The translations under genes were made by a program, and so were the position numbers. From assembly GCA_026391235.1 (NCBI GenBank), contig JAPLDV010000039.1, positions 1 through 6,360 of the forward strand: a stretch of DNA of 6,360 nt, in the 5' to 3' direction. Below, one piece after another: positions 1 through 6,360 of this stretch. The stretch is from Bacteroidia bacterium (GTDB lineage Bacteria > Bacteroidota > Bacteroidia > Bacteroidales > UBA12481). Numbering within the stretch: the first letter of the stretch is position 1; each line of letters opens with the position of its first letter. The notes under the pieces are model-generated. The model ran no database searches. It saw only the letters and a list, made by a program, of their open reading frames with translations, and was not told the origin of the DNA.

Positions 1-1135
1 ATTCAGACTCTGTTCCCGGTTTGATTTTTCCCGGCCAGGCGGCAATCATGGGAACCCTGATTCCGCCTTCATGCACAAATCCTTTACCCCAGCCATAGGT
101 AGTGACAAAGGGTGCAAAAGAATTAAACCAGGCTGGATCGCATCCGGCATTATAGGCATAACCGTTGTCGCTTGAAAAAATAATGAGCGTGTTTTCGTAT
201 TGCCCGGTCTCTTTGAGCTTTTTGATCAGCTGGCCAACCTGAAAATCCAGGTACGAAACCATTGCCGCATAGGTGGCATGCGGATATCTTGCCGGGAAAT
301 AACCTTCTTTTCCGAGATATGGCTTCTCATCGCCGAATTTTGCAACATACTTATCCACCCATTCCATGGGAGCCTGTAAAGCCAGGTGGGGCAGGGTGGA
401 GGCGAAATACAGAAAGAATGGCTGATTGCTCCGGTTTTCGATAAACCGGCCGGCCTCATCGATGAACAGTGCCGGTGAGTATTCCTTTTGGGTAAAAATG
501 GCATAACTCAACAGGTCGAGCGTATCGGCACCCTTCGCCAGTTTGGTTCCCGGGACAACAAGATCATTGTTCAGGATTACTTTTTCTTCGTTTCTCCACA
601 GATGTTTCGGATAGTAAGTATGAGCCTGGCGCTGGCAATTATACCCGAAAAAGAAATCAAAGCCCTGCTTATTCGGAGTGCCTTCGCTATTGGGTGCACC
701 GAGACCCCATTTACCCACGATGCCGGTTCGGTATCCTGCCGTTTTAAGATATTCCGCGAGGGTTTTCAGGCTGTCCGCTATGGGATATTGTCCTTCCAGG
801 TTCGGATCATTTTCCGCTTTGGCGAAATTCCAGACATCTCCCCGCTCGCCCCATTCATGATTACCCCTGATGTAGGAATGGCCCGAATGCTGACCGGTCA
901 GTAAAACGCACCTCGAAGGCGCGCTCACCGGGCTTCCGCAATAATGCTGGGTAAAGCGCATGCCATTTCGCGCGAGCAAATCCAGATTGGGTGTTTCAAT
1001 CAGTTTCTGACCGTATGCGCCGATCTCGGTATAGCCCAGATCATCAGCCAATATATATATGATGTTGGGCTTATCCTTGGCGAAACCCGGAATCCCGGCA
1101 AGGACTGAAGATAAAAGGAGGGGGAGGGCTTTCAT
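1..1135 (-). CDS. Secreted sulfatase, Ser-type (formylglycine-dependent), partial at C-terminus
   Basis: Enzyme of the arylsulfatase/alkaline phosphatase fold that hydrolyses sulfate esters, probably on a sulfated sugar or glycan in the periplasm. I translated 378 uninterrupted codons; the gene leaves the window before its stop. Residues 1-19 form a short signal peptide ending GIPGFA before KDKPN. Metal ligands are D31-D32 and D323-N324 (SDNG). The sulfatase signature is SAPSRCVLLTG at 71-81, so the residue converted to formylglycine is Ser71, not Cys. Further family blocks are GKWGLG around K142, QAHTYYP around H172, and GKGFVHEGGIRVP around K351. Ser-type sulfatases are matured by the radical SAM enzyme anSME, which is not in this window. 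The ATG at 1135 is secure because an in-frame TAG lies three codons upstream. No Shine-Dalgarno site is visible; the leader is the octamer array. The substrate cannot be told. Confidence 0.95.
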   Translation of the reverse strand, partial: MKALPLLLSSVLAGIPGFAKDKPNIIYILADDLGYTEIGAYGQKLIETPNLDLLARNGMRFTQHYCGSPVSAPSRCVLLTGQHSGHSYIRGNHEWGERGDVWNFAKAENDPNLEGQYPIADSLKTLAEYLKTAGYRTGIVGKWGLGAPNSEGTPNKQGFDFFFGYNCQRQAHTYYPKHLWRNEEKVILNNDLVVPGTKLAKGADTLDLLSYAIFTQKEYSPALFIDEAGRFIENRSNQPFFLYFASTLPHLALQAPMEWVDKYVAKFGDEKPYLGKEGYFPARYPHATYAAMVSYLDFQVGQLIKKLKETGQYENTLIIFSSDNGYAYNAGCDPAWFNSFAPFVTTYGWGKGFVHEGGIRVPMIAAWPGKIKPGTESE

Positions 1136-1140
1136 AATAT

Positions 1141-1204
1141 GCTAACATGCTAATGTGCTAATATGCTAATATGCTAATGGGTTAATATGCTAATATGCTA
1201 ATGT
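1141..1204. repeat. 8-bp tandem repeat array, eight units (left array)
   Basis: Eight contiguous units of exactly 8 bp with plus-strand consensus GCTAATAT. Six units begin GCTAAT; unit 1 has GCTAAC and unit 6 has GTTAAT. The last two bases vary (AT, GT, GG). A degenerate ninth unit (CATAATAT) follows at 1133-1140 and contains the sulfatase start codon, so the array would form most of the sulfatase 5' leader. Period 8 is not a multiple of 3, which argues against coding. The units are contiguous with no spacers, so this is not a CRISPR array. Confidence 0.93.
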
Positions 1205-1256
1205 AAAGATTCGCTGATACGAACTTCTTGCTTATCAATAATTTAATATCCCTGAT

Positions 1257-1319
1257 CAAACTAAAATAAACCCGTTTCCTTCTACAATTAATTCTATTGA
1301 CTAAAATAAAGTTTTCAAA
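1257..1319 (-). promoter_or_regulatory. Two candidate Bacteroidota-type promoters for the sulfatase gene
   Basis: The Bacteroidota primary sigma factor prefers TTTG, about 19 bp, then TAnnTTTG. Candidate A reads TTTG (1316-1319), 19 bp, TAGAATTA (1289-1296), a partial -7 match. Candidate B reads ATTG (1285-1288), 20 bp, TTAGTTTG (1257-1264), a better -7 match with one base off. Either would give a leader of roughly 110-150 nt that contains the octamer array. The region is AT-rich, so chance matches are likely and neither is secure. Confidence 0.28.
1260..1310. repeat. 11-bp direct repeat pair
   Basis: ACTAAAATAAA occurs at 1260-1270 and again at 1300-1310, 40 bp apart start to start, about four helical turns. 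On the minus strand each copy reads TTTATTTTAGT and each overlaps or lies next to one of the two promoter candidates. It may be a duplicated regulatory element or simple AT-rich chance similarity. Confidence 0.4.
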
Positions 1320-1336
1320 TGTCAGAGGCTTGACAT
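1319..1336. promoter_or_regulatory. Palindrome, possible operator
   Basis: ATGTCA and TGACAT form a perfect 6-bp inverted repeat around a 6-bp spacer (GAGGCT). On the minus strand the palindrome directly abuts the TTTG of promoter candidate A, a plausible place for a regulator. It is short and could be chance. Confidence 0.25.
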
Positions 1337-1352
1337 ATAAGTACATTCTTAA

Positions 1353-1388
1353 ATTAGCATATCAGCATATTAACCCATTAGCATATTA
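1353..1388. repeat. 8-bp tandem repeat array in opposite orientation (right array)
   Basis: Four to five units of the same octamer, here read as ATTAGCAT on the plus strand, hence inverted relative to the array at 1141-1204. Units two and three deviate (ATCAGCAT, ATTAACCC), and a further degenerate unit (ATTATCTC) covers 1385-1392. The array overlaps the last codons and the TAA stop of the broken tcdA gene. Confidence 0.9.
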
Positions 1389-2060
1389 TCTCCCGGATGA
1401 CCACCGAAGCCAGATAGCAACCAAACACGGGAGGCATATAGCTGATCGTACCTACCGTTGACCTTTTATTCAGTTCACCGTCGGTGAGGACAATTGTTTC
1501 GGGATTTACCTTTTCAGGTGAAAAAACCACCTTCAGGCCGGTATACACTCCAAGCGCATGCAACCGCTTTCGTAAAATGCTGGCAAGTTGACAGTTATAA
1601 GATTCCGAAAGGTCGGATATCTGAACCTGCATCGGATCAAATTTGCCACCCGATCCCATGGAACTGACTATTCTCAAGCCCTTTGAAACAGAATGAAAAA
1701 TCAGGAAAACTTTAGGTGACAAGGTATCAATGGCATCAATCACATAATCAAATCTCCCGCTGAGAATCTCAATCATCCTTTCATCGCGTATGTACTCATC
1801 ATGAACAGTGAGTTCCAGGTCGGGTTGGGTAATCCTTCAACACTGGTTAATGCAATCAATTGCCGGTTGCGGTTGGTGGCATGGATTTTATCGCCATCCA
1901 CAATAGTCATTTTACCAACTCCCGACCGGCAGAGCATTTCGGCGGCATAGGCTCCAACCCCGCCGAGCCCGACTACCAAGATATGTGCCTGCCGGAGTTT
2001 CGAAAGTTTCTCGTTGCCAAGAAGAAGTTCAGTCCGTTCCAGCCATTCGGGATGTATCAT
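1378..2060 (-). pseudogene. tcdA: Broken TcdA-like tRNA threonylcarbamoyladenosine dehydratase (E1/ThiF family)
   Basis: Intact TcdA uses ATP to cyclise t6A to ct6A at position 37 of ANN-decoding tRNAs. The first frame (ATG at 2060, MIHPEW) carries the Rossmann motif GLGGVG at 31-36, acidic residues D55 and D57, and NRNRQ at 63-67, then loses similarity after TSVEG at residue 76. The rest is in another frame: ITQPDL from 1833, then YVIDAID, SSMGSGGKFDP and a C-terminal SYMPPVFGCYLA, ending at TAA 1378-1380. Against my recollection of E. coli TcdA, about 11-14 residues holding the conserved GxxK-x-x-VM-x-x-R segment are absent at the junction. This fits a deletion of 3n+1 bases, roughly 30-45 bp, that also shifted the frame. 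The start overlaps the preceding TatD-family gene by 32 bp. A functional protein is unlikely unless this is an assembly error. Confidence 0.85.
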
Positions 2061-2724
2061 GAATTCCAAATACTTTTTCGAAATTGGAGGCCAGGCAAGA
2101 TTGCATTCTTTCCAAAGATAGCTTTTTGATCCTTGATGCCGCGTCGTAGATATCTTCAATCGGACGCCGGCCTTCGTCTGATTCAAGAAAAAAGCGGTTG
2201 TCAGGGGTGTTTCTCAGGATTTCGGAGAGAACCGGGTTGAATGATAAAAGGCTTTCCCCGAAGGAAAGATAAAACCCCATGTCCACAAGTTTTGCGGCTA
2301 TGTGGATTTTACCCCGGAAACCGTGAATGATCCACGGGACTTTCGGGCTCAGTTCGGTTTTCAGCGACATGATTTCGTGCCAGGCCCGTACACAATGTAT
2401 GATCAGCGGTTTTTGCCTTAATTCGGCAAGCCCGGCGTGTTGCGTGAAAAGCAGTGCCTGCGACCTGACAGGTGCCCCTTTCAGGCGGTCGATCCCGCAT
2501 TCACCGATGGCAATTACCTGTGGCAGTGAGGCTGCCTGATCGCTTGATTTTTTATCCATGCTCACCCTGTCACTGTCCCATGGATGAACCCCAAAAGAAA
2601 ACAGCCCTTCACGCGGAATATCCAAAGTGGGCCCCTTGATCAGTATATTCCTGATACTGATCAAATCCGGACGGTGCGGGGAATCCTGGTGCGAATGGAT
2701 ATCGATGAACATCTGTTCCATCAT
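2029..2724 (-). CDS. TatD-family metal-dependent hydrolase (short form)
   Basis: Member of the TatD branch of the amidohydrolase superfamily, whose characterised members are metal-dependent 3'-5' exonucleases or DNases acting in the cytoplasm. All expected metal ligands are visible: H10 and H12 (DIHSHQ), E75 (IGECGID), H110 (IIHCVRAWHE), H134 (IHGFRG) and D183 (FLESDEG). GVHPWD at 45-50 is the usual family block. At 231 residues it is shorter than the roughly 260 of E. coli TatD, but all catalytic blocks are present, so I read it as a naturally short form. It begins 11 bp after the acetyltransferase and its end overlaps tcdA by 32 bp, which suggests coupled translation. ATGs at 2724, 2721 and 2712 are possible starts; the purine-rich AGGGTGG at 2731-2737 favours the first two. 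The exact substrate cannot be inferred. Confidence 0.93.
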   Translation of the reverse strand: MMEQMFIDIHSHQDSPHRPDLISIRNILIKGPTLDIPREGLFSFGVHPWDSDRVSMDKKSSDQAASLPQVIAIGECGIDRLKGAPVRSQALLFTQHAGLAELRQKPLIIHCVRAWHEIMSLKTELSPKVPWIIHGFRGKIHIAAKLVDMGFYLSFGESLLSFNPVLSEILRNTPDNRFFLESDEGRRPIEDIYDAASRIKKLSLERMQSCLASNFEKVFGIHDTSRMAGTD

Positions 2725-2730
2725 GAAATT

Positions 2731-2737
2731 CCACCCT
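2731..2737 (-). promoter_or_regulatory. Shine-Dalgarno-like site for the TatD-family gene
   Basis: AGGGTGG on the minus strand lies 6 nt before the ATG at 2724 and 9 nt before the ATG at 2721. It overlaps the TAG stop of the acetyltransferase gene. The match to AGGAGG is imperfect. It matters mainly because it favours the upstream starts over the ATG at 2712, which would begin the protein at MFIDIHSH. Confidence 0.35.
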
Positions 2738-3230
2738 ATAACCTCTTCACATAAACAACCTTATCGTCGCCATCATTATAAAAATCTTCAAACCGTGCTT
2801 TTTCAATGTAATTATTCTTCAGATAGAAAGCCCGGGTAGGCTCATATTTGGGAAGATAGGAGGTTTCAACGTAAATCGTTTTTCCACCGGATGCCGCGAT
2901 AGCTTTCTCGACTTCACGGAGTACGATCTTTCCGATGCCCTGGCCACGATAATCCTCATGGGTCGCGATCCAATACAGGTCGTAGCTGTACAGAGTGCAG
3001 GGAATGAGTCCAAAGCAAGCATAGGCAACTGTGCGGCCATCCGCCTCAACAAATACAAAATCATATCCGCTTTCCCGGCCCTTTTCCAGGCCTTCAGCCA
3101 CGAGCTCTACTGCCACAGGTACTTCATCCGGGCGGAAAAAGCCGGATGAGATAACTATTTCCTCAACAGCTGCCGGATCCGAGGCCATGACTTCTGACCT
3201 TACGGATAGATTTTTCGCTTTGGTTTTCAT
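2736..3230 (-). CDS. GNAT-family N-acetyltransferase
   Basis: Cytoplasmic acetyl-CoA-dependent acyltransferase, 164 residues, a usual length for a single GNAT domain. The fold runs from about residue 22: helical region to 54, strands around FVFVEADGRTVAYACFG (58-74) and YSYDLYWIAT (81-90), the acetyl-CoA pyrophosphate loop RGQGIG at 95-100, helix to about 113, KTIYVETS (117-124), and a C-terminal FYLKNNY (135-141) followed by DGDDKVVYVK. The ATG overlaps the TGA of the upstream ATP-grasp gene as ATGA, so the two are almost certainly co-translated. From memory, proteins with the same YDLYWIA, RG-G-G and ETS-P-Y-PTRAFY pattern occur in many phyla, often near D-Ala-D-Ala-ligase-like genes; I could not verify this. 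Context suggests it modifies the amine of the pathway product or an intermediate. It could instead be a resistance or protein acetyltransferase. Confidence 0.92.
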   Translation of the reverse strand: MKTKAKNLSVRSEVMASDPAAVEEIVISSGFFRPDEVPVAVELVAEGLEKGRESGYDFVFVEADGRTVAYACFGLIPCTLYSYDLYWIATHEDYRGQGIGKIVLREVEKAIAASGGKTIYVETSYLPKYEPTRAFYLKNNYIEKARFEDFYNDGDDKVVYVKRL

Positions 3231-4189
3231 CGATCGTTAAGAATTCGTTGTACTACCTCAGTAAATGAATAGCCGCTACGGAGGGCGGCATTATAGAATC
3301 CTGAATCAGGCGAAATACATGGATTAGCATTGATTTCAAGCACGTATGGCTGATTATCCTGATCGATCCGGAAATCTATACGGGCATACCCTTTAAGATT
3401 GAAAGCCGACCAGCATTGGTAGCAAATCACTTTCATCTGTTCAAGCAGGGGCTGGTCTGATTCCGGAAGGTCGAACGTCCGCATGGTATTCCGATATTCA
3501 AAGGTGTTTTCATCCCATTTAGCTGCGTAACCCATAATCGATGGTTTTCCGGCCGGGAAGTCTTTATATATCATTTCGGCTGGTGAAAGCACTTCCGGAC
3601 CATTGGGCCCGCCAAACACCGACAGGTTAAATTCCCGGCCGGTTATGAACTCTTCGATAAAGAAATGATCACCCCATCGGTTTCGGAACATTTCGAGAAT
3701 GCCAGTATCTGCGCCATTAATGACGTTCTCATCATTGATTCCGACCGAAGCATCCTCACGCGAAGGTTTCACTATATATTGCCTGGCCGGATCAAGATTA
3801 AAAGAATCCTTAGCTGTCCACCACTGTGGAGTTGGAATTCCCATGCCCTTCATTAACTTCTTTGCCAATGGTTTCTGAGTGGTCAGGAACATGGCATCCG
3901 AAGGGTTGCCGGTCATTGGATAATTCAGGCTTTCCGACAGTGCCGGAATAAAATACACCAATCCGCCGCTGTTGTTCAAACTTTCGACCAGGTTAAATGC
4001 GATCCCCCCAGGTTCGCTCATCAGCTTATCGATTAAAGAGTTGAGGTTTGAATCCACGAATTCTCTTTCATGAACCAGACCCAATTCATCCAGGCTCTTT
4101 TCAACGGCTTCCACCTGATCGATAACATCCATCTCATCTATGGTGGGCTGGTCCGACAGGCGGTTTATCAGGATAATTATCTTGTTCAT
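3227..4189 (-). CDS. D-Ala-D-Ala-ligase-like ATP-grasp carboxylate-amine ligase (second of pair)
   Basis: ATP-grasp enzyme, 320 residues, expected to activate a carboxylate as an acyl phosphate and join it to an amine. The N-terminal part shows Ddl-like blocks FNLVESLNNSGG (65-76), LNYPMTGNPSDA (88-99) and a Lys-rich helix before GIPTP (117-121). ATP contacts are YIVKPSREDASVGI (138-151, with K141) and FIEEFITGREF (177-187). Mg ligands fit D272 (ARIDF), E285 and N287 (LEINANP). It differs from peptidoglycan Ddl in having NANPCISPDSGF where Ddl has N-T-x-P-G-[MF]-T, so the second-substrate pocket differs and a role in D-Ala-D-Ala synthesis is unlikely. It overlaps both neighbours by 4 bp (ATGA), which indicates coupled, near-stoichiometric expression. 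Acceptor and donor are unknown; the neighbouring aminomutase suggests a beta-amino acid. Confidence 0.93.
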   Translation of the reverse strand: MNKIIILINRLSDQPTIDEMDVIDQVEAVEKSLDELGLVHEREFVDSNLNSLIDKLMSEPGGIAFNLVESLNNSGGLVYFIPALSESLNYPMTGNPSDAMFLTTQKPLAKKLMKGMGIPTPQWWTAKDSFNLDPARQYIVKPSREDASVGINDENVINGADTGILEMFRNRWGDHFFIEEFITGREFNLSVFGGPNGPEVLSPAEMIYKDFPAGKPSIMGYAAKWDENTFEYRNTMRTFDLPESDQPLLEQMKVICYQCWSAFNLKGYARIDFRIDQDNQPYVLEINANPCISPDSGFYNAALRSGYSFTEVVQRILNDR

Positions 4190-5166
4190 TTGACTTTTAT
4201 TTTTTTTATTGCCGAAAACATAATCCGTTGAATCAGTTCAGTATATGATATTCCGTTCATTCTGCTGAGCATGGGAAGATCGGAATAGGTGGGGTTCATT
4301 CCTGCCAATGGATTGACCTCTATGAAATTGGGCATCCCGTTGGAATCACAGCGTAGGTCGACTCGTCCGCCATCTTCGCAATGCAGGACAATCCAGGCAG
4401 CCAGTGCGACCTTTTCGCAGGCGGCGGCCATTTCACCGCCGGCGAGCTCATACCGGCATCGTTCGCGCCACTCTTCCTTATTGGTGTAGGAATAAACTCC
4501 GGGTTCGGCCTTGTCGGTAAGCAGTACCTCCATAACGCCGGTTACTGCTGACTGAGCGTCTGTGCCGGTGATTCCGACGGTAAATTCACGTCCGCCGAGG
4601 TATGTTTCAACCAGCACCGGCTGATGAAACCGGTCAAGCAAATAGAGGCAGCGGGTATTAAGTGCTTCAGGATCATTTATAATGGATTCGCCGGAAATCC
4701 CTTTGCCGGTACCTTCGGCCACAGGCTTTACAAAAAGGGGGTAGGGCAGGCTGACCTTCGGTATATCTCCGGGCATTGTCACCACGGCAAAGTCGGCCGT
4801 TGGGATACCTGCATCACGTATTATCCTCTTGGTCATACCTTTATCGAGGGTGAGGGACAGGACAAGAGGGTTGGAAAAGACGTATGGGATAGTAAAAGCA
4901 TCCAGCAGTGCCGGCACCTGAGCCTCCCTGCCGATGCCATAAAACCCTTCGCAGATGTTGAATACCATATCCCAGCGGCGCCCGGCCAGCAGGGCTTCCA
5001 TTAGCGACCGGAGATGTCCGATCCTTTCGGTTTGATGACCCAGGTTATGAAGGGCATTTTCGATACCGGCTATTGTTTCAAACGTATCGAATTCTGCAGC
5101 ATCTTCCTCGCTGAATCCCATTAAAAGGTAATCCTCGCGAAGGTCGTAGGTAATTCCGATTGTCAT
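4186..5166 (-). CDS. D-Ala-D-Ala-ligase-like ATP-grasp carboxylate-amine ligase (first of pair)
   Basis: ATP-grasp enzyme, 326 residues, related to but clearly distinct from the downstream gene. Blocks in order: GITYDLREDYL (4-14), VFNICEGFYGIGREAQVPALL (68-88 region), LDKGMTKRIIRDAGIP (107-122), ATP-binding LFVKPVAEGTGKGI (144-157, K147), LVETYLGGREFTVGITG (185-201), and metal site D270 (GRVDL), E283 and N285 (IEVNPLAGMNP). The Ddl serine loop after the ATP lysine (REGSSVG in E. coli DdlB) is replaced by AEGTGKG. TYSDLP (293-298) sits where Ddl has the Ser that binds the terminal carboxylate. This fits a dipeptide-type ligase with altered first substrate. The ATG at 5166 lies 13 bp after kamA with no strong ribosome site, and the TGA overlaps the next ATG. 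It is probably not the housekeeping Ddl, since no peptidoglycan gene is nearby. The C-terminus KKIKVK is lysine-rich. Confidence 0.93.
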   Translation of the reverse strand: MTIGITYDLREDYLLMGFSEEDAAEFDTFETIAGIENALHNLGHQTERIGHLRSLMEALLAGRRWDMVFNICEGFYGIGREAQVPALLDAFTIPYVFSNPLVLSLTLDKGMTKRIIRDAGIPTADFAVVTMPGDIPKVSLPYPLFVKPVAEGTGKGISGESIINDPEALNTRCLYLLDRFHQPVLVETYLGGREFTVGITGTDAQSAVTGVMEVLLTDKAEPGVYSYTNKEEWRERCRYELAGGEMAAACEKVALAAWIVLHCEDGGRVDLRCDSNGMPNFIEVNPLAGMNPTYSDLPMLSRMNGISYTELIQRIMFSAIKKIKVK

Positions 5167-5179
5167 GTTGGGAAATCAG

Positions 5180-6360
5180 CTAGATATAATCCGGGAAGCG
5201 ATAAGTTTTACCCTCATAATTTTTGATGATCAGATCATCACCTTCGCGACCGACCACATAATCAGGCAGCAGCGGAATCTTTCCGCCGCCACCGGGAGCA
5301 TCGATCACAAAATGCGGGATGGCATATCCGGATGTAAATCCTCTGAGATTACGGATGATTTCCAGCCCTGATTCAAGCGGTGTCCGGAAGTGAGCGGAGC
5401 CGGGTATCGGATCACATTGATAGAGGTAGTATGGTTTTACCCTGATTCTCAATAACTCATGCGCCAGCTTTTTGAAAACGGAAGCGTCATCATTGATCCC
5501 TTTCAGCAAAACTGTCTGACTGCCGAGCGGAATACCCGCATCGGCCAGGCGGTTGCAGGCGTCGATCACCTCCGGAGTTATTTCATCCGGATGGGTAAAG
5601 TGGATGCTCAGGAACAGAGGATGGTATTTCTTTAGCATTTTCACCAGATCGCGGGTGATTCGCTGGGGCATTACCACTGGAACCTTAGTCCCGATGCGGA
5701 TAATCTCTACATGAGGAATTTCATGAAGTTTTTCCAACAGATACTCGATCCGGCTATCGCTGAGTGTAAGCGGATCACCTCCAGAAAGAAGGACATCGCG
5801 GACTTCCGTATGTTCCCTAATGTAATCGATTGCCTTATCCCATTCTAACTGACTGGAATGAACCTTATCCTGCTTCGAAACCATGTGCGTCCGGGTACAA
5901 TAGCGGCAAAAAGCAGAGCAGAAATTCGTTACCAGGAATAGAACGCGATCGGGATAGCGGTGAACAATAAGCGGAACGGGGCTGTCATGCGTTTCACTTA
6001 ACGGATCTTCAACCTCTCCTGGAGATATATTTAATTCGAGGGCCACTGGTACAACGGTACGGCGCAATGATTGTGATGCATCATCAGGATCCAGCAAACT
6101 GGCGTAATATGGAGTGATCCTCACCGGAAGGTTTTTACCATAAGCTTTTGAATTTAATTCCTGGTTGGAAAGACCCAGGAAAGAATTCAGCTGGTCAAGC
6201 GATGTGAAACTATTCCGCACCTGCCATTGCCAGTTGTTCCAGTCACTTATACCGGAACCTGGGAAATGCCTGGTTAGAAATTCAACTGACCTTAGGCTGA
6301 CAGTAAAAACGGTGCTGGGTGCTGCTTGAATAGTCAGATGGACATTTTGCCTGATATCAG
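5180..6360 (-). CDS. kamA: KamA-family radical SAM/PLP aminomutase (lysine 2,3-aminomutase-like), open at N-terminus
   Basis: Moves an alpha-amino group to the beta carbon using a [4Fe-4S]-SAM cluster and PLP; lysine to beta-lysine is the classic reaction. Counting from the GTG at 6220, the cluster motif is C101-x3-C105-x2-C108 (codons 5897-5920), the SAM block is LLSGGDPLTLSD (144-155), and the PLP lysine is K314 in DAPGGGGK. The lysine-binding residues of the Clostridium enzyme (R134, D293, D330) correspond to R110, D270 and D307, all kept. The protein stops at FPDYI and lacks the C-terminal Cys-rich zinc tail; the internal Cys partner is Asp in GINDD. GTG 6220 is probably not the start: the frame stays open to the window edge and encodes the family motif DWNNWQWQ just upstream. 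No ATG, GTG or TTG lies in frame in 6221-6360, so the true start is likely beyond the edge. EpmB is an alternative, but no EF-P gene is near. Confidence 0.93.
   Translation of the reverse strand, partial: DIRQNVHLTIQAAPSTVFTVSLRSVEFLTRHFPGSGISDWNNWQWQVRNSFTSLDQLNSFLGLSNQELNSKAYGKNLPVRITPYYASLLDPDDASQSLRRTVVPVALELNISPGEVEDPLSETHDSPVPLIVHRYPDRVLFLVTNFCSAFCRYCTRTHMVSKQDKVHSSQLEWDKAIDYIREHTEVRDVLLSGGDPLTLSDSRIEYLLEKLHEIPHVEIIRIGTKVPVVMPQRITRDLVKMLKKYHPLFLSIHFTHPDEITPEVIDACNRLADAGIPLGSQTVLLKGINDDASVFKKLAHELLRIRVKPYYLYQCDPIPGSAHFRTPLESGLEIIRNLRGFTSGYAIPHFVIDAPGGGGKIPLLPDYVVGREGDDLIIKNYEGKTYRFPDYI

Follow-up and report, generated by a model that had tools for sequence, protein, structure and literature searches.

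A Four-Gene Set in the Window

The window considered here is the whole of a 6,360-nucleotide stretch from a Bacteroidia bacterium (contig JAPLDV010000039.1, positions 1 to 6,360), and our subject is a minus-strand quartet running from 6358 to 2736 that encodes a KamA-family aminomutase, two ATP-grasp ligases with the fold of D-alanine–D-alanine ligase (Ddl) and a GNAT acetyltransferase. We consider it rather probable that these four genes constitute a pathway dedicated to making a small beta-lysine metabolite held together by amide bonds. They are:

5180-6358, minus strand: KamA-family radical SAM lysine 2,3-aminomutase (Pfam LAM_C and Radical_SAM; stop at 5180)
4186-5166, minus strand: ligase 1 (Lig1), Ddl-fold ATP-grasp amide ligase (Pfam Dala_Dala_lig_C)
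3227-4189, minus strand: ligase 2 (Lig2), Ddl-fold ATP-grasp amide ligase (Pfam Dala_Dala_lig_C)
2736-3230, minus strand: GNAT N-acetyltransferase (Pfam GNAT)

The coordinates of the open reading frames (ORFs) confirm the tight arrangement described in an earlier note on this DNA, and Pfam agrees with its family assignments. KamA and Lig1 are separated by 13 bp (5167-5179), and ATGA overlaps join Lig1 to Lig2 (4186-4189) and Lig2 to GNAT (3227-3230). The KamA frame is open to the window edge, so its 5′ end lies outside the window and the promoter region is out of view. The alignment of its 392-residue frame with the solved lysine 2,3-aminomutase 2a5h begins at residue 37, ten residues ahead of the first internal GTG start; the KamA of the closest relative has 419 residues. 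This nearest named relative (L001), a Porphyromonadaceae metagenome assembly, shares 83% (Lig2) to 94% (KamA) identity with the window.

The enzyme families are known, and their combination is one for which we found no description among the open-literature papers listed, as far as titles and the beginnings of abstracts go. The label “uncharacterised” given to the set by the earlier note stands within these bounds, with the reservation that the survey of ATP-grasp amidoligase neighborhoods by Iyer et al. 2009 may list the set.

Conservation and Co-occurrence

Species genomes were scanned with a Lig2 alignment and the best 80 of 554 loci were taken as the core sample, whose record titles name Bacteroidetes, Deltaproteobacteria, Planctomycetes, Spirochaetia, Alphaproteobacteria and others. 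Counting only loci with enough flank, Lig2 is accompanied by Lig1 in 67/70, by KamA in 49/53 and by GNAT in 66/74, and all four genes are present in 41/50. This recurrence in relatives from other phyla indicates that the arrangement is not due to chance; it upholds the earlier view of the quartet as one functional unit, and the objection that the four families might rarely co-occur outside this genome fails. Altogether, the set was seen in genomes of Bacteroidota, Ignavibacteria, Thermodesulfobacteriota, Planctomycetota, Spirochaetota and Pseudomonadota.

The 44 loci with all four genes show mean identities of 56% (KamA), 54% (Lig1), 41% (Lig2) and 43% (GNAT). Between-gene distance correlations are positive throughout (Spearman 0.38-0.65, with none of 500 permutations as high), although they partly reflect the common ancestry of the hosts; the strongest links KamA with Lig1 (Spearman 0.65).

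A second sample (the Desulfobacterales draw) comprised 247 genomes from the phylum of one Desulfobacterales genome, searched with Lig2 and with the KamA of the operon. A Lig2 match at E ≤ 1e-40 was present in 87 of them, and Lig1 lay beside Lig2 in 29 of the 30 best loci (as pieces in L112 and L121), the remaining locus (L120) being cut by a contig end. Lig2 scored at least 240 bits in 38 of the 39 genomes having a KamA of at least 600 bits vs. 8 of the 208 others, a comparison with cut-offs set after the scores had been seen and a Fisher test that ignores kinship. KamA was situated within 6.5 kb in 43 of the 46 genomes with such a strong Lig2. For the pairing, each of the 87 genomes contributed its best Lig2 match (G479 two), and KamA was represented by 39 rows of at least 600 bits and 55 lower rows; including the other KamA rows could not have lowered the number of KamAs near Lig2.

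In the Planctomycetes draw, 15 of 199 genomes matched Lig2 at E ≤ 1e-60. Within the short flanks of these 15 loci, Lig1 was found in 10, a protein joining a GNAT to a histone-deacetylase-type domain (GNAT-HDAC, see below) in three others, GNAT only in L214 and no partner in L211. In the draw from the phylum of the window's relative, 53/296 genomes matched Lig2 at E ≤ 1e-50.

Beyond the core genes, no gene cluster is common to more than 6 of the 80 loci, and a Pfam search on ten nearby genes gave nothing recurrent, with no Mur enzyme, flippase or transpeptidase named. These neighborhoods bear on the proposal that the set makes a secreted specialized metabolite (an antibiotic, a metallophore or a signal), for which the presence of amide ligases alongside tailoring enzymes can be invoked, as can two neighboring transporters, one of the EamA type next to Lig2-GNAT (L057) and the other a CitMHS transporter (L073). 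We regard it as unlikely: no export gene recurs, and spread across phyla at mean identities of 41-56% would look more like primary metabolism.

A Lysine-Type Aminomutase

The window KamA aligns with 2a5h at E 4e-133. Residues C125/C129/C132, R134, D293, D330 and K337 of that structure correspond to positions 146/150/153, 155, 315, 352 and 359 of the 392-residue frame. The pair D293 and D330, which binds the side-chain amine of lysine in that structure, is kept in 56/56 operon KamAs (the window included), 3/3 KamAs of variant sets and 20/20 AblA rows; glutamate aminomutases carry Lys/Asn at these positions (7/7). The iron-sulfur cysteines and the pyridoxal phosphate lysine are retained in the operon, variant and reference groups. 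The AblA and glutamate aminomutase groups were checked by NCBIfam on two members each.

The 56 operon KamAs form one side of a branch in the tree (SH-aLRT, the Shimodaira–Hasegawa-like approximate likelihood ratio test, 100). Site counts and tree share an alignment of ORFs of at least 340 aa, with loci L081-L130 and the second copies L131-L146 (except L132) set aside; the checked EpmB L150 (339 aa) falls outside it, and its single EpmB row (L157), unchecked by NCBIfam, sits on a long branch. In a second tree with wider groups, the operon rows are thinned to alternate ones and L151-L157 are left aside. Against the AblA model (TIGR03820, cut-off 525.4) the window KamA reaches 479.2 bits as a 5′-truncated copy, and the full-length KamAs of L036 (486.9) and L059 (467.6) are also under the cut-off, L059 being the complete genome of the isolate Planctomycetes bacterium Poly30. 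Glutamate 2,3-aminomutase (TIGR04368) was discarded, with 438.6 bits vs. 650 and Asp/Asp instead of Lys/Asn.

EpmB, a KamA relative that makes beta-lysine for elongation factor P (EF-P), would lend some appeal to the idea that the set modifies protein or RNA, for example by EF-P beta-lysylation. It was rejected as an identity for the window KamA, which scores 264.5 bits vs. a cut-off of 369.3 (TIGR03821). EpmA is over its cut-off in only 5/20 host genomes, and two of these (G014 and G010) have a separate KamA-family gene near EpmA; the one in G014 is a true EpmB (474 bits). Such a modifying role is thus very improbable. Taken together, the Asp pair, the tree, the scores under the AblA and EpmB cut-offs and the separate EpmB point to an aminomutase of the lysine type that forms a clade by itself and is not EpmB, and the earlier note's objection that it might prove to be an EpmB fails; it looks lysine-specific, predicted to convert lysine into beta-lysine.

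Two Ligases With a Ddl Fold and a Different Site

Public names for the ligases, where present, are often “D-alanine-D-alanine ligase,” a labeling that hides the pathway. Their likeness to Ddl lies in the fold and in the ATP/Mg residues (K97, K144, E180, E187, K215, R255 and D257 of Ddl), which are kept in 108/108 Lig1 and 127/127 Lig2 rows, and both are predicted to form amide bonds at the expense of ATP. These rows stem from 130 Lig1 and 142 Lig2 ORFs after identical and short ones had been removed; a few genes may be counted twice as differently cut pieces. Differences are more extensive: identity with Ddl is 15-30% among the matches listed, and the scores against the Ddl model (TIGR01205, cut-off 245.65) are 109.9 bits for Lig1 and 81.3 for Lig2, with the ligases of sets elsewhere at no more than 170.8.

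Ser150 and Tyr216 are site residues of E. coli DdlB. Their counterparts in the window are T153 and E231 in Lig1 and A147 and W225 in Lig2. All 127 Lig2 rows have Ala or Gly at position 150 and Trp at 216. Lig1 has Ser at 150 in 26/108 rows and Thr in the remainder; at 216, the residues listed are Glu, Ser, Lys, Ala, Gln or Trp, and Tyr is in none of the commonest. In the ligase tree (ligases of 280-430 aa from 11 of 80 core loci, 5 loci of the Ignavibacteria type, 6 of the polyamine type, 5 with lone ligases and 6 others), the set ligases form a clade separate from Ddl. Since, moreover, 18/20 host genomes contain a separate true Ddl over the cut-off, we rejected their assignment as Ddl paralogues; the earlier reading of them as ligases other than Ddl is supported.

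The Ddl fold and the Ser retained at position 150 in part of the Lig1 rows could point to a cell-wall or surface precursor, with the ligases making a modified dipeptide for peptidoglycan or some other polymer of the envelope. The separate true Ddl, the changed Tyr216 position of both ligases and the absence of wall genes from the ten nearby genes speak against this, and the deacetylase partner described below would fit a wall residue poorly; we therefore give a wall precursor little credence.

The proposed amide-forming pathway resembles PylB/PylC in its working: there, a radical SAM rearrangement of lysine precedes the joining of a second amino acid by an ATP-grasp enzyme. It differs in that KamA is an aminomutase, not PylB, and in that PylC (TIGR03909) is excluded for Lig2 (24.3 bits vs. 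a cut-off of 248.3); the best 25 of 32 families matched by Lig1 do not include PylC.

GNAT and GNAT-Deacetylase

At E ≤ 1e-6 the GNAT profile has a single solved relative, 2r7h, whose deposited name is putative D-alanine N-acetyltransferase, and a PHROGs search with three proteins gave matches for the GNAT only. Its identity as AblB (TIGR03827) was discarded, with 22 bits vs. a cut-off of 205.1.

In 16/80 loci, the window not among them, an accessory protein combines an N-terminal GNAT-like domain with a C-terminal domain of the histone-deacetylase type (PF00850, 241-264 bits in 5/5 scanned). L062 was left out of this count, as the motifs were not found there. The best solved relatives of the deacetylase domain, in the one member compared, are acetylpolyamine amidohydrolases, and the catalytic motifs RPPGHH and DxDxHHGNG are present in 24/25 long GNAT-HDAC ORFs, three of which are second copies of the same gene. 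Examples are found at 3952-5724 of L024 and at 9033-11282 of L027, the latter with a second GNAT fused on. We predict an activity of the acetylpolyamine amidohydrolase type.

The presence of a lysine-type KamA and a GNAT also invites a simpler proposal, namely that the set makes only N-epsilon-acetyl-beta-lysine for salt tolerance, as AblA/AblB does, with the ligases serving a separate purpose. Beta-lysine is known in free form, on EF-P and in antibiotics. Its acetylated form is a known compatible solute and osmolyte (PMC1224877). The likeness with AblA/AblB comprises a lysine 2,3-aminomutase with the same lysine-binding residues and a GNAT; the window differs in a KamA that lies under the AblA cut-off in its own clade, a GNAT that is not AblB, and two additional amide ligases. 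As no partners are more constant than the ligases (Lig1 above all) and KamA and Lig1 diverge in step, kinship accounting for part of this, we find it improbable that the set makes acetyl-beta-lysine alone.

Another known small set brings together an acetyl cap and an ATP-grasp ligase, that for N-acetylglutaminylglutamine amide (NAGGN). In NAGGN synthesis genes, GNAT and ATP-grasp are fused in some members. The window differs from it in having KamA and two Ddl-like ligases, and no asparagine-synthetase-like gene was named by Pfam in the window or in the nearby genes scanned. NAGGN is described as a solute of halophiles (PMC1224877).

Second, Split and Fused Forms of the Set

A second form, with gene order Lig1, Lig2, GNAT, KamA, was found in 12 of 19 other loci fetched from the draw of the window relative's phylum; L087 is the same form cut short on the Lig1 side, and the remaining six are lone ligases. 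Three full second-form loci were confirmed with wider flanks. Where named, the genomes with second-form Lig2 relatives are Ignavibacteria, Ignavibacteriales or Bacteroidota.

Split sets account for two of the nine incomplete core loci: in a spirochaete genome (G008, L036) Lig1 is located on another contig (L199), and in G016 a Lig1-like gene and KamA (L181) stand apart from Lig2-GNAT (L057). Fusions of Lig2 with GNAT occur in 7/80 loci by ORF matches, two of them checked by Pfam. These split and fused forms suggest an order of action in which KamA-Lig1 precedes Lig2-GNAT.

Other arrangements were also observed. In L205, from the Planctomycetes draw, Lig1 and Lig2 matches fall in one 721-residue ORF, with a KamA fragment match beside it. 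Lone Lig2 relatives (L092, L093, L095, L096, L097 and L100) have no KamA, Lig1 or GNAT in the fetched stretch, and two of them were still alone after the flanks had been widened (L196 and L197).

A Link With Polyamine Genes

Twenty genomes of the Desulfobacterales draw have a weaker Lig2 match and no nearby KamA. In the 14 of these that were inspected, a related ligase pair belongs to another operon: a gene for pyruvoyl arginine decarboxylase (PvlArgDC) is situated upstream of Lig1, on the same strand and within 1 kb, in 12/14 (L215, L217, L219, L224-L230, L232 and L234; one ORF intervenes in L219), the remaining two loci ending at a contig end. Of the 14, 10 also show an arginase/agmatinase-family gene and 7 a gene of the deoxyhypusine-synthase family. 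Genes were identified by Pfam in three loci and in the rest by phmmer to those members. Brochier et al. reportedly dealt with bacterial deoxyhypusine synthase homologues in 2004.

All 14 genomes have a KamA match of 548-582 bits, unlinked to the ligase pair. Three of these KamAs adjoin the operon KamAs in the tree (SH-aLRT 98), as does that of L223, a KamA with a neighboring ligase. The likeness between this polyamine operon and the window consists of the related ligase pair, seen in 14 genomes of one draw; the differences are that KamA is unlinked there and that the window contains no polyamine gene. A polyamine is the leading partner candidate, because the related pair sits in putrescine-making operons elsewhere. 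This suggests a polyamine connection as a new element, absent from the earlier proposal of a peptide-like product.

The Proposed Pathway

In the pathway that we favor, KamA would first move the amino group of lysine from carbon 2 to carbon 3, as the conserved lysine-type site indicates. Lig1 would then activate a carboxylate as an acyl phosphate through ATP and make an amide bond; being the partner tied most tightly to KamA, its likely substrate is beta-lysine. Lig2 would place a second amide bond on the product of Lig1, and GNAT, sometimes fused to Lig2, would acetylate a free amine of the result. In some lineages, the GNAT-deacetylase would make the acetyl mark reversible. The product would most plausibly be a small, reversibly acetylated beta-lysine amide, perhaps joined to a polyamine. 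It probably stays in the cell, and a solute or stress metabolite seems somewhat likelier than a wall precursor.

A more specific version, in which the ligase pair links beta-lysine to putrescine, to agmatine or to several of them in a chain and yields a polyamine-like amide with its charge tuned by reversible acetylation, is put forward tentatively. If true, such a beta-lysine-polyamine hybrid would represent a class of polyamine analogues that is both new and widespread in bacteria. With two dedicated amide ligases added, a conserved set of this kind would imply that many bacteria share a metabolite so far overlooked, and the four genes are small enough for joint expression and a direct test.

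Several observations weigh against this interpretation. GNAT is absent beside the ligases in 8/74 loci, three genomes (G363, G399 and G402) have KamAs of 545-554 bits without any Lig2 match, contrary to a strict link, and the operon-KamA profile, built from the operon KamAs themselves, is partly circular. A Lig2 of the window type occurs in only 1/296 genomes of the relative's phylum, i.e., the relative itself (551 bits, the next being 231.6). The KamAs of the different forms do not make up one clade: those of the Ignavibacteria type group by themselves (SH-aLRT 99), apart from the clade of the window, and the KamA of G016 is over the AblA cut-off (539 bits) and groups with AblA. The Ddl Y216 position of Lig1 varies (Glu in 61/95 rows, Trp in 12/13 variant rows). 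PvlArgDC is found in only 11/26 genomes tested, and in none of G001-G006; with so patchy a distribution the polyamine link is not general. The role is not indicated by the surroundings either, given that no regulator or transporter recurs among the neighbors and that a riboswitch search of 18 of the 80 loci at the gathering threshold returned rRNA matches only, leaving the osmolyte idea without regulatory support in these 18 loci.

Other Features of the Window and of Related Loci

Downstream of the quartet, the window contains the following features:

2029-2724, minus strand: TatD-family gene, starting 11 bp past GNAT and co-directional with the set
1378-2186, minus strand: two ORFs in different frames matching the N- and C-terminal parts of TcdA/ThiF
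2-1135, minus strand: sulfatase (Pfam PF00884), running off the window

TatD was dropped as a member of the set, since a phmmer search (E ≤ 1e-5) matched it in 0/80 relative loci, some of them with little downstream flank. The split TcdA/ThiF ORFs are a broken gene or an assembly error. A promoter and terminator scan of 1100-3000 found 4 and 2, respectively, vs. 3.3 and 1.7 in shuffles.

Among the related loci, a small Cys-rich CxxCxxCC-like gene was noticed in L038, L042, L048, L058, L061 and L072 (the single member scanned reached 22.4 bits, the Pfam cut-off being 23). It adjoins KamA, upstream of a ligase, in 5/6 loci, the stretch of L072 being without KamA. In the window, two arrays of 8-bp units lie between the sulfatase and the broken TcdA gene, at 1135-1204 (TAATATGC, 8.5 copies) and at 1353-1388 (ATTAGCAT, 4.5 copies).

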